Assembly (NCBI GenBank): GCA_002723155.1
Contig: PBNO01000002.1
Span: 769,960 to 833,959 of the forward strand
DNA length: 64,000 bases
Source of the DNA: Ponticaulis sp.
GTDB taxonomy: Bacteria; Pseudomonadota; Alphaproteobacteria; Caulobacterales; Hyphomonadaceae
Direction of reading: 5' to 3'
Shown here: positions 16,600-19,055 of the stretch, piece by piece
Numbering within the stretch: position 1 is the stretch's first letter
How the letters are laid out: the number at the start of each line of letters is the position of its first letter
Position numbers and translations under genes: made by a program
Notes under the pieces: generated by a model
The model's input: only the letters and a program-made list of their open reading frames with translations
Databases searched by the model: none
What the model was told of the DNA's origin: nothing

Positions 16600-16670
16600 C
16601 GGGGTAATCGACCGGCAATTCCCTAAGGAGAGGCTTGCGCGGTGCGGGTTTAGCTGACTATCTCCACCCT

Positions 16671-17528
16671 ATGACGACTGCATCTGATACCACCCGTTTC
16701 TTTGATCTCGACCCGACCGACGACCCGAACAAATGGACGCTTGATGTTTCCATGGGCATTTCGGTGGGCCCGCCAAAGCATAAATTCCTGTTTGGCGGTG
16801 TGGGCCTCGCCTCTGCGATCCGCGCGCTGGAACTCACCCATGAGCGACCGCTGATCTGGGCGACGGCGCAGTATCTCTCCTTTGCCCAGCCTGGCGAGAC
16901 GGTGAATGTGGATGTACGCGCCGCGACCGAGGGCAAGAACATCACGCAGGCGCGCGTGCTCGGCCATGTGGGCGACCGCGAGATTTACACGGTGAACGCC
17001 GCCGTCGGGTCACGTGGCAAAGAGCTTGATCACCAATGGCTGGAAATGCCGGATGTGGCCCCGCCTATGGATTGTGAGGCTCTGCCGCGCTTCCGCCCGA
17101 AGGTGGATGACGAGCCGGATGATCTGCAGCAGCGCCTGCATACCCGCGTGGCCCATGGCCGCTATGGCAAGAAGCGCAATGAGGGCGGCCTGTCAGAAGA
17201 TGGCCGCGCTGTGCTCTGGTCCCGCCCGATGGACCCGAATACGCCAATTGATGCCACTATGCTTGCTGTGATCGCGGATTTTGTGCCAGGCGCAACGGGC
17301 AATGCGCTGGGCCTGCAGGCGGGCGCAAACTCGCTCGATAACACCATTCGTATCCGCAAGATTGTGCCAACTGAATGGGTGTGCGCCGACCTGCATATTC
17401 AGGGCATTCATGACGGCTTCGTGCATGGTGAGGCGCGCCTTTTTGCTGAAGATGGCACGCTTATGGCTGTCGCCTCACAGTCGGGTATTGTCCGCATCTG
17501 GGATGAGAACGGTAAGCGCTTTAAGTGA
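16671..17528 (+). CDS. acyl-CoA thioesterase, double-hotdog (TesB-like)
   Basis: 285 residues from the ATG at 16671; a TTG at 16635 with AAGGAG just upstream is an alternative start adding 12 residues. Two hotdog halves are seen: the N-terminal half includes FLFGGVGLASAIRALE and TAQYLSFAQPGETVNVDV, the C-terminal half DATMLAVIADFVPGATG, SLDNTIRIRKIVPTEWV and GEARLFAEDGTLMAVASQSG. This layout is that of TesB/4HBT_3 thioesterases that hydrolyse medium- to long-chain acyl-CoA. It is followed at once by the palindrome-rich region around the GIY-YIG gene. Confidence 0.82.
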   Translation: MTTASDTTRFFDLDPTDDPNKWTLDVSMGISVGPPKHKFLFGGVGLASAIRALELTHERPLIWATAQYLSFAQPGETVNVDVRAATEGKNITQARVLGHVGDREIYTVNAAVGSRGKELDHQWLEMPDVAPPMDCEALPRFRPKVDDEPDDLQQRLHTRVAHGRYGKKRNEGGLSEDGRAVLWSRPMDPNTPIDATMLAVIADFVPGATGNALGLQAGANSLDNTIRIRKIVPTEWVCADLHIQGIHDGFVHGEARLFAEDGTLMAVASQSGIVRIWDENGKRFK

Positions 17529-17545
17529 GCGGGTGAAACCCGCTC
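17527..17545 (+). repeat. dyad GAGCGGGT-GAA-ACCCGCTC
   Basis: Perfect 8-base arms with a GAA loop, beginning inside the thioesterase stop codon. No T-run follows, so it is not a classic terminator. It abuts the next palindrome without a gap. Confidence 0.7.
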
Positions 17546-17565
17546 ATCCCTGCGAAGGCAGGGAT
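17546..17565 (+). repeat. extragenic palindrome ATCCCTGC-GAAG-GCAGGGAT
   Basis: Perfect 8-base arms with a GAAG tetraloop. The layout (AT, C-rich arm, GAAG, G-rich arm, AT) is that of a family of extragenic palindromes I know from general alphaproteobacterial sequence, and it is repeated at 17588 with other stem bases. Confidence 0.75.
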
Positions 17566-17580
17566 CTCGTCAACACAAGC

Positions 17581-17622
17581 ACCGAAGATGCCCTTGAAGA
17601 AGGGCATCCAAGCTTAGACCTC
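17581..17622 (+). repeat. GIY-YIG-flanking palindromic repeat, left copy
   Basis: The core is ATGCCCTT-GAAG-AAGGGCAT (17588-17607), followed by the tail CCAAGCTTAGACCTC. The whole 42-base unit recurs at 18036-18077 on the other side of the GIY-YIG gene, with two stem base pairs changed on both arms so that pairing is kept. Confidence 0.8.
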
Positions 17623-17654
17623 AACACCAGCACATGCCTCACGATTTAAGCATG

Positions 17655-17676
17655 GGTTCCCGTCTTCACGGGAACC
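17655..17676 (-). repeat. palindrome GGTTCCCGT-CTTC-ACGGGAACC, inverted orientation
   Basis: Perfect 9-base arms. Read on the minus strand the loop is GAAG and the hairpin is followed by CATGCTTAAAT, resembling the CCAAGCTTAGA tail of the flanking units, so this is probably a third, inverted member. It lies 57 bases before the GIY-YIG start. Confidence 0.65.
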
Positions 17677-17732
17677 TGCGGCGTTTCAATATTGCCCTTC
17701 CAATAATGGCCGTTCTGCCCTTCAATCTCTGA

Positions 17733-18020
17733 ATGGCATTTTACGTCTACCTGCTTGCGAGCCAGAAAAACGGCACACTGTATTGTGGCCACACTGACGA
17801 CATTGCCTCGCGAGTTCACGCCCATAAGGAAGGACGCGGTGCAGCTTTCACCCGCCGCTATCATGTAAATCGTCTCGTCTGGTATGAACTGCATGACACA
17901 CGCGATGCTGCAAAAACGCGCGAATACCAGATCAAGAAGTGGAACAGAGCGTGGAAGGTCAGGCTCATTGAGGAAGGGAACCCTGATTGGATCGACCTCT
18001 ACCTGCAACTCAATCACTAA
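17733..18020 (+). CDS. small GIY-YIG nuclease-domain protein
   Basis: 95 residues, a whole UPF0213/YhbQ-like single-domain GIY-YIG protein. The signature is FYVYLLAS (GIY position varied to YVY/L) then GTLYCGHTDDIASRVHAHKEGRGAAFTRRY (YIG position as YCG, catalytic Arg in SRV) and the metal-binding Glu expected in the later helices (RLVWYELHD, AAKTREYQIKKW). Such domains cut DNA or form part of mobile-element machinery; the cellular role of the small ones is unsettled. No good ribosome site is seen before the ATG. It is bracketed by palindromic repeats with GAAG or GCAG loops, which suggests a partnership like that of REP sequences with their transposases. Confidence 0.85.
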   Translation: MAFYVYLLASQKNGTLYCGHTDDIASRVHAHKEGRGAAFTRRYHVNRLVWYELHDTRDAAKTREYQIKKWNRAWKVRLIEEGNPDWIDLYLQLNH

Positions 18021-18035
18021 GCATTTGCCCCACGC

Positions 18036-18077
18036 ACCGAAAATGCCCACGCAGGTGGGCATCCACGCTTAGATCTC
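18036..18077 (+). repeat. GIY-YIG-flanking palindromic repeat, right copy
   Basis: The core is ATGCCCAC-GCAG-GTGGGCAT (18043-18062) with tail CCACGCTTAGATCTC. Compared with the left copy, the stem pairs TT/AA are replaced by AC/GT, preserving the hairpin, and the tail differs at only two positions. It starts 15 bases after the GIY-YIG stop. Confidence 0.8.
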
Positions 18078-18103
18078 TCTTTCGTTATCTATCTCCGGAT
18101 CCT

Positions 18104-18134
18104 GATAAGGGAACCTAGGGCTCGAAACCTTATC
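18104..18134. repeat. inverted repeat GATAAGG-N17-CCTTATC
   Basis: Perfect 7-base arms separated by 17 bases, in the leader of the next gene. It may be a degenerate further palindrome of this region or a regulatory dyad. Confidence 0.4.
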
Positions 18135-18167: not shown

Positions 18168-19055
18168 ATGACAGAAGAGGCCTACACCCTGCATCGCGTG
18201 ACCGCGCCTGCTGCTGCCCCAACGGGGCCGGCGGCATTTGCAGAGGATATAAAAGCGCTTCACACCCGTGCCGCTGCGCATCTGGATGCTCATCTGCATC
18301 CCAATCCACCTGAAACCTATAACGAGCCCTGGACACAGATGGAGCACATCTATGCGCGGGGGCTTCGCCAGTTCATCGCGCTGGCGGATTATGCGCTGCG
18401 CTGTTTTATTCTGGTTCTGGCTGGCGAGCTTCTTGGCAGTGAAAGCGGGCGCAAAGAGGCAGAAGCGTATCTTGCCCGCCCGGAACGCGACCCGCCACGT
18501 AAACGCCCTTATTCCATCTTTGCCGAGCACCAGGAAAAGCGCCCTGCAAAGGGTAGCTTCACCGCATTTTCTCCGCGCGCCTCAGCGCCGCGCAGGGGCA
18601 AGGCTAGCCCGCGTCCGTTTGAGCCCTATGACTGGCAAATGGTGGATTGTTCGCGCCTTATGCGGCGGCTGGAGCGCCTGCCGGATGCCATTGCAAATGC
18701 AGAGGCGCATGCCACCCGTCTTGCGGCACACATCCTCTCTGTCGCTTTCGTGCTGAACGAAGACGAACTGACCGCCCCGCGTATATCGTCGCCATTGTCA
18801 TCCCGGACGATGAAATCGATCCGGGACCCAGTAACCGGTCAGATTGTTTTCTCTGGATCCCGGATATGCGGGTCGCATTCCGGGATGACGGGATCACACA
18901 TCCCTACCTATCCCGGCTTCTTCCGGTGTCTGCAGCATTGGTATCCGCCGCCCGATGTGATGGAGCGCGCCGATGACACCGCGCGCAGCACGCTTCTTTC
19001 CCTGCACTATAAAGCAACAGAATCCCTTGAAATCCTGCACACCCGATTGGCCTGA
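18168..19055 (+). CDS. hypothetical protein carrying an in-frame REPIN-like insertion
   Basis: 295 residues; no family recognised. The first 200 residues look like a normal cytoplasmic helical protein (RGLRQFIALADYALRCFIL; MRRLERLPDAIANAEAHATR) and the last 30 as well (DVMERADDTARSTLL). Between them, residues about 211-241 are encoded by a 93-base double palindrome (18797-18889) and read as a Ser/Gly/Ile-rich stretch unlike the rest. The element length, 31 codons, keeps the frame open. The native gene may have run directly from ELTAP (residue 204) to PDVMER (residue 262), with the whole intervening part acquired; this is inference. No Shine-Dalgarno sequence is visible, so the start is uncertain. 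Confidence 0.6.
   Translation: MTEEAYTLHRVTAPAAAPTGPAAFAEDIKALHTRAAAHLDAHLHPNPPETYNEPWTQMEHIYARGLRQFIALADYALRCFILVLAGELLGSESGRKEAEAYLARPERDPPRKRPYSIFAEHQEKRPAKGSFTAFSPRASAPRRGKASPRPFEPYDWQMVDCSRLMRRLERLPDAIANAEAHATRLAAHILSVAFVLNEDELTAPRISSPLSSRTMKSIRDPVTGQIVFSGSRICGSHSGMTGSHIPTYPGFFRCLQHWYPPPDVMERADDTARSTLLSLHYKATESLEILHTRLA
18797..18889. repeat. REPIN-like pair of inverted GTCATCCCGGA palindromes inside a gene
   Basis: Two related hairpins face each other. Left: GTCATCCCGGA, inner stem CGAT-GAA-ATCG, then ATCCGGGACCCAG. Right, read on the minus strand: GTCATCCCGGA, inner stem ATGCG-ACC-CGCAT, then ATCCGGGATCCAG. Each has a single-base bulge between outer and inner stems. The conserved ends and variable middle mark them as two members of one palindromic family, resembling the GTCATCCCGG-type repeats I know to be common in alphaproteobacterial intergenic DNA. 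Confidence 0.8.

Follow-up and report, generated by a model that had tools for sequence, protein, structure and literature searches.

A small GIY-YIG nuclease gene and its flanking CGTC-type palindromes as a probable minimal mobile element of bacteria

Two described systems come closest to the locus examined here, a GIY-YIG nuclease gene set among hairpins in a 64,000-nt stretch of the genome of Ponticaulis sp. (contig PBNO01000002.1; the whole stretch is called the window). The first is the CGTC superfamily of repetitive extragenic palindromes (REPs), which, in the available sections of their description (Di Nocera et al. 2013, PMC3733652), carry a CGTC or variant tag, a stem of 8-9 bp usually starting with AT, a loop of 4 or 5 bases and a CCA-type tail, and form dimers. 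They occur mostly in Alphaproteobacteria, are reported from five phyla and include Neisseria dRS3 as well as the Rickettsia repeats RPE-4 and RPE-6; the same sections describe them as having no dedicated transposase and leave their means of spread open, and the string "GIY" is absent from the main text of that paper. The second is the REP/RAYT REPtron (PMC8266576, PMC6006769), in which, according to the excerpts available, a nuclease gene stands beside inverted REPs, REPs are dispersed as inverted pairs (REPINs), a tetranucleotide tag adjoins the hairpin, and enzyme and REP type are matched. We propose that the GIY-YIG gene and the REPs around it probably form a minimal mobile element of the form REP-GIY-YIG-REP, of which dispersed REP pairs would be gene-less derivatives.

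With the CGTC REPs the system shares the tag, the 8-9 bp stem, the loop of 4 or 5, the CCA-type tail and the dimers, and it differs from them, as described in the sections cited, in having a GIY-YIG gene as recurrent partner. The REP/RAYT traits just named recur as well; RAYT, however, is in the cited excerpts an HUH enzyme working on GTAG REPs, whereas here a GIY-YIG protein of ~95 aa is paired with CGTC, GCTC or variant tags (GTAG does not figure among the 12 tags most often seen at the 340 REP-pattern sites defined below). Domain and size are those of the small UPF0213/COG2827 GIY-YIG proteins: the window protein matches PF01541 at 67 bits and no other Pfam family at E 1, and the closest solved relatives by sequence, 1zg2 (E 9e-9) and 1ywl (E 2e-4), were deposited as hypothetical proteins. 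Miniature inverted-repeat transposable elements (MITEs) derive from parent transposons, and the gene-less inverted pairs resemble them in looking like internal-deletion derivatives of a gene-bearing unit (explicitly so in one case, L097, below); unlike MITE parents, the unit has no gene for a DDE or HUH transposase, and target-site duplications were not detected. A link between GIY-YIG genes and REPs was not found among the matches listed in a search of the open PubMed Central (PMC) literature; preprints and most subscription papers lay outside that search, and a prior description is possible. The open PMC papers on COG2827, YhbQ or UPF0213 include, in their available parts, none about REPs, and a Moraxella paper containing both search terms has them, in the part available, as separate entries of a gene list.

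The features of the locus, in window coordinates, are the following.

17546-17565, plus strand: REP hairpin with GCTC tag at 17542-17545, stem ATCCCTGC/GCAGGGAT, loop GAAG and tail CTC
17580-17681, no strand assigned: REPIN-like inverted REP pair of ~100 bp, with related copies dispersed in the same genome and in the congeners G001 and G004
17580-17622, plus strand: REP unit 1, with tag CGAAG, 9-bp stem, GAAG loop and CCA tail, then AGCTTAGA; left half of the REPIN-like pair
17655-17676, minus strand: REP unit 2, inverted, GGTTCCCGT-GAAG-ACGGGAACC with tag CGCAG; right half of the REPIN-like pair
17733-18020, plus strand: GIY-YIG nuclease gene, 95 aa, from the list of open reading frames (ORFs) and the PF01541 match; proposed enzyme of the element
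18035-18077, plus strand: REP unit 3, the downstream bracket, with stem ATGCCCAC/GTGGGCAT, loop GCAG and hairpin at 18043-18062

A preliminary description of this DNA had reported two units bracketing the gene, with compensating changes in their stems, and both statements hold: the units are present at 17580-17622 and 18035-18077, each beginning one base earlier than given there, and between unit 1 (ATGCCCTT-GAAG-AAGGGCAT, hairpin at 17587-17608) and unit 3 two base pairs are swapped on both arms. The two further GAAG-loop hairpins that it placed upstream, one of them inverted, were likewise found, at 17546-17565 and 17655-17676 (the inverted one). Units 1 and 3 sit inside a 47-nt direct repeat that is 81% identical, and four of the six hairpins with a perfect stem (at least 8) and a 4-base loop in the window lie around the GIY-YIG gene; an Rfam scan of the whole window at gathering thresholds gave no match. 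The tags of these units diverge from CGTC (CGAAG, CGCAG, CGAAA and one GCTC), and the GCTC type of the first hairpin pairs with a second GIY-YIG gene of the same genome (L075). An inverted partner of unit 3 may, in our reading, survive as degraded remains at ~18100-18120.

The palindromes fit the known CGTC REP superfamily and are not a new family. Among 340 distinct sites matching TNCCNGCGNARGCNGGNA, drawn from the window and all loci fetched by then, the tags were led by GCTC (125), CGTC (86) and TGTC (27), the tail was CCA in 235 and the outer pair was A-T in 219; loop-4 and loop-5 types both occur at GIY-YIG genes. The covariation noticed in the window proved general, since at the two inner stem positions left free by the pattern 323 and 333 of the 340 sites form Watson-Crick pairs, where independence would give 132 and 171; the constraint on the outermost pair, which the pattern likewise leaves free, is weaker (248 paired against 212 expected). 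The genome of the window (G000) holds 26 sites of the strict REP pattern against one for a control pattern, and many of those listed lie in pairs ~55-100 bp apart. Beside these, a separate GIY-YIG subfamily (L066, L070, L073, L074, L080, L087, L088) is accompanied by GCGCCTCCCCGYG-type stems with mostly CTTGA or CTTGT loops, a TCCA-like tail and a tag other than CGTC, which are possibly a separate REP family.

To quantify the association, we searched 61 genomes (that of the window and 60 relatives, ~203 Mb with sizes rounded), which gave 91 GIY-YIG matches in 41 of them; 62 of the 91, mostly the best-scoring, were studied in 61 loci. A second set comprised 86 loci with 88 genes, 80 of the loci being the best of 561 genome-contig candidates and 6 coming from a plasmid collection, and the pooled sets contain 146 distinct GIY-YIG genes. 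The strict REP pattern occurs 720 times in the 61 genomes (3.5 per Mb) and 41 times in the 30.9 kb within 250 bp of the 62 genes (1,325 per Mb), a 374-fold enrichment, with at least one strict site in 24 of the 61 relatives loci. In these loci, hairpins with a stem of at least 8 have a density of 4.7 per kb within 100 bp of the gene and 3.1 per kb over the next 100 bp, against 0.16-0.18 per kb at 2-6 kb, and in the second set the values are 4.7 and 1.9 per kb near the gene against 0.36-0.37 far from it. The 146 GIY-YIG genes have 168 strict sites, and 899 control ORFs from these loci have 34. Homologous repeats, counted where their score exceeds the 99th percentile of controls, bracket 107 of the 143 scorable GIY-YIG genes (146 in all) and 13 of 928 control ORFs; the Acidiphilium, Rhizobium and Shinella plasmid loci L362-L365 lay outside this test. 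A hairpin criterion allowing one mismatch was dropped because it discriminated poorly (positive at 51% of control ORFs, 18 of 27 ParE loci and 77% of GIY-YIG genes), and the conclusions here are therefore drawn from strict sites, stems without mismatch and bracketing repeats. Across genomes, the median number of strict REPs is 14 in the 24 with a close homologue (at least 99 bits) and 2 in the 20 without (p 2e-5, uncorrected for relatedness).

One could suppose that REPs and small accessory genes merely gather in the same permissive intergenic regions, and the any-hairpin excess does fall to 3.3-fold (4.2 against 1.3 per kb) when GIY-YIG-adjacent regions are compared with other intergenic regions only. 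Even so, a hairpin is present in 62 of 131 GIY-YIG-adjacent and 108 of 617 other regions, a difference matched in 0 of 2000 permutations (crude ORF calls), the 27 usable of 30 fetched ParE toxin loci contain no strict REP site, the REP class co-varies with the protein subfamily, and the ends of the element are exact, as set out below. To such passive co-location we give almost no credence, and the clustering of palindromes at GIY-YIG genes, which the preliminary description had suggested looking for, is borne out by the strict-site enrichment, the ORF and ParE controls and the bracketing repeats.

That description had also asked whether palindrome and protein vary together, and they do. Within 260 bp of the 146 genes, perfect-stem palindromes are of loop-4 type only at 63, of loop-5 type only at 23, of both types at 4 and absent at 56. 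On a tree of 85 single-type proteins, which are short and leave many forks unresolved (row L097_3505 is an unreliable long branch), seven REP classes require 24 changes against 52.0 when shuffled, with 0 of 200 shuffles as low, and five of the classes cluster. The same picture emerges from pairs among 40 classed genes of the relatives set, at an identity cut of 55%: between genomes, 97 of 177 pairs at or above the cut share a REP class against 47 of 581 below it, whereas within a genome none of 15 pairs below the cut do so, and 4 of 7 at or above it. The genome of the window itself has three GIY-YIG genes with three REP classes. REP class thus tracks protein subfamily and not host, since unlike paralogs in one genome differ while like proteins across genomes often agree. 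At the level of sequence comparison, the suggestion that the GIY-YIG protein may recognise or move the palindromes is supported.

The gene and its REPs further behave as one mobile unit. Seven Caulobacterales copies, two of them in the metagenome-assembled genome (MAG) C15 bin.38 (L112, L122) and two in E19 bin.98 (L125, L127), share an alignment whose limits are the outer edges of a REP (CCGCTCATCCTCGC...) and of its inverted partner, with unrelated flanks; in L112, 78-nt inverted repeats, 88% complementary, form the ends of a span of ~507 bp. An initial view of these copies as REP-free was an artefact of the perfect-stem filter, and the alignment finds imperfect REPs at the exact ends. Left flanks tending to be C-rich and right flanks G-rich may, in our reading, reflect a target preference. 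In Azospirillum lipoferum 4B, sufB and sufC are separated by the arrangement REP-REP-gene-REP-REP; in eleven further Azospirillum records the matching region is ~500-600 bp shorter, and the three that were aligned contain neither gene nor REPs. Shinella WSC3-e and HZN7 carry the unit, and three aligned relatives are without gene and REPs. Sinorhizobium meliloti Ak57 (L097) has a second, tandem unit with an internally deleted gene between its REPs, and Sinorhizobium C101 retains REP remains only.

Empty sites were sought elsewhere too: none was clear at the two Caulobacterales loci inspected of 24 returned from 299 genomes of the order, and none useful for Rhizobium CIAT894 among the matches listed. 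An 82-bp Rhizobium indel taken up as a possible empty site belongs to another repeat family; it is a palindromic insertion distinguishing plasmid loci L366 and L363, between carnitine dehydrogenase and keto-aminohexanoate cleavage genes, in regions otherwise 96% identical. The search for a clean empty REPIN site in the genus of the window led into mosaic repeat clusters, assemblies of ~1 kb combining several intergenic repeats, REPIN copies included (L209 at G000:C3:139600-142800, L207 and L216). At the window locus, the homologous site in G001 has the REP pair and no GIY-YIG gene, and the comparison with G001 and G004 cannot tell gain from loss. The homologous site in G004 (L202, G004:C11:952300-957000) shows a ~1.8 kb coding-looking insert beside a lone inverted REP. 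The ORFs on either side of the window gene run from 16635 to 17528 and from 18168 to 19055, and a palindrome with a 9-bp stem, TGAGCGGGT-GAA-ACCCGCTCA at 17526-17546, overlaps the stop codon with which the upstream ORF ends and directly adjoins the first REP.

The main competitor to this account is that the gene is a selfish, homing-type nuclease that uses existing REPs as cut sites and as landing pads for recombination, spreading itself without generating REPs, which spread by other means. Free-standing GIY-YIG homing enzymes are known in phages, and such a gene would account for flanking REPs, for class matching and for patchiness, as well as for the gene-less REP pair of G001 and for genomes that have REPs and no gene. 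It accounts less readily for Caulobacterales copies whose sites are unrelated and whose two outer ends are complete REPs, which argues that the whole bounded unit moved, for dispersed REP pairs that share the inverted end arrangement of the units, and for the aligned empty sites of Azospirillum (three) and Shinella (three), which are without a REP in our reading. We consider homing onto REPs unlikely on this evidence.

The association extends well beyond the relatives of Ponticaulis. REPs lie beside a GIY-YIG gene in Neisseria gonorrhoeae (dRS3-type sequence; L095), Azospirillum (L096), Sinorhizobium (L097), Novosphingobium (L098) and Aeromonas (L099), and in MAGs, whose taxon labels may conceal contamination, assigned to Gallionella (L166), Chloroflexi (L155), Omnitrophota (L145), Doudnabacteria (L141) and Mesoflavibacter (L147); in a Dehalococcoidia MAG (L129) they are downstream of the gene only, and no such palindrome is at the gene in MAGs L133 (Doudnabacteria), L160 (Deltaproteobacteria) and L179 (Zixiibacteriota). 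The link proposed from one locus is thus seen again in Neisseria and Aeromonas as well as in MAGs from several phyla. Among 398 genomes sampled evenly from the phylum, the L166 protein has a homologue in 102; 30 loci from this sample, which are best matches rather than random ones and include three duplicates of earlier loci, gave 24 that score above 20 for bracketing repeats (one unscorable) and 19 with palindromes on both sides. In a phage collection, 7 of 50,697 records matched. The GIY-YIG genes are distributed patchily, with up to 6 matches per genome.

This distribution bears on a structural or regulatory explanation, in which the palindromes would serve a DNA-repair gene (UvrC-like, possibly SOS-controlled) as terminators, regulatory hairpins or messenger RNA stabilisers and be linked to it by shared ancestry. 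REPs have been placed mainly downstream of coding regions, with a plausible function as RNA elements (available sections of PMC3733652), and three C. crescentus COG2827 genes, one with an SOS box, were discussed in 2007 as possible repair genes (PMC1839093, in the part available). Against this role stand the frequent presence of REPs on both sides of the gene, their dispersal genome-wide, the patchiness and multiplicity of the gene, and the occurrence of the unit at unrelated sites and inside an operon; we regard it as very improbable.

How a REP-GIY-YIG-REP unit would move can be sketched. Y6 (98%), Y17 (98%), R27 (100%), H31 (97%), E64 (99%) and N83 (99%) are conserved in 144 aligned proteins, and Y, Y, R, E and N are GIY-YIG active-site residues with catalytic roles; conservation in nearly all of the proteins leads us to expect working nucleases. 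The REPs form the ends of the element, and in the clearest family, that of the Caulobacterales, their tags face outward. For TnpA-REP both tetranucleotide and palindrome matter (PMC8266576, in the part available), and on this analogy the GIY-YIG protein most likely recognises the REP as tag plus hairpin, either a single-stranded hairpin or a cruciform. It would then nick or cut at the REP, host replication and repair would copy the unit to a new site, and dispersed REPINs would be gene-less derivatives served in trans. We infer the cleavage, the form of the substrate and the part of this protein, rather than another host enzyme, in moving the unit and the REPINs.

Besides the modest intergenic excess given above, several points weigh against the proposed element. 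GIY-YIG enzymes cut DNA by hydrolysis, and the joining of ends is not an activity known for them, which makes the joining step the weakest part of the mechanism, and no target-site duplication was found. Bracketing repeats were absent by our test from 36 of the 143 GIY-YIG genes, some of which have palindromes by eye, and the two leftover REP classes show no clustering on the protein tree (as low in 102 of 500 and in 500 of 500 shuffles). In their number of strict REPs, the 17 genomes whose homologues are all weaker resemble those without one (median 1, p 0.29), and some genomes are rich in REPs with no P0001-like gene at E 1e-8 (G049 with 26, G013 with 18, G033 with 12 and G036 with 9). Finally, the Brevundimonas loci L116, L118, L130, L131, L152, L154, L164 and L172 have flanks conserved over kilobases between species, so the gene may be fixed or domesticated there.

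A broader claim, which we advance tentatively and with somewhat less than even confidence, is that these loci represent a new class of transposable element, in which a lone GIY-YIG nuclease, unaided by transposase, integrase or reverse transcriptase, mobilises a unit of ~350-575 bp (our estimate) bounded by REPs and, in trans, the CGTC REPs and REPINs of several phyla, Neisseria dRS3 included, convergent with REP/RAYT through unrelated chemistry. If this is true, a nuclease matched to its REPs would provide a concrete, testable enzyme for how CGTC REPs spread, and the pairing of tagged-hairpin repeats with a nuclease would have two or more separate origins, the enzymes being unrelated. A possible role would also be suggested for many genes whose annotation now goes no further than "GIY-YIG nuclease family protein" or "UvrC-like", and mobility that depends on a GIY-YIG enzyme alone, with neither intron nor reverse transcriptase, would constitute a new route for mobile DNA.
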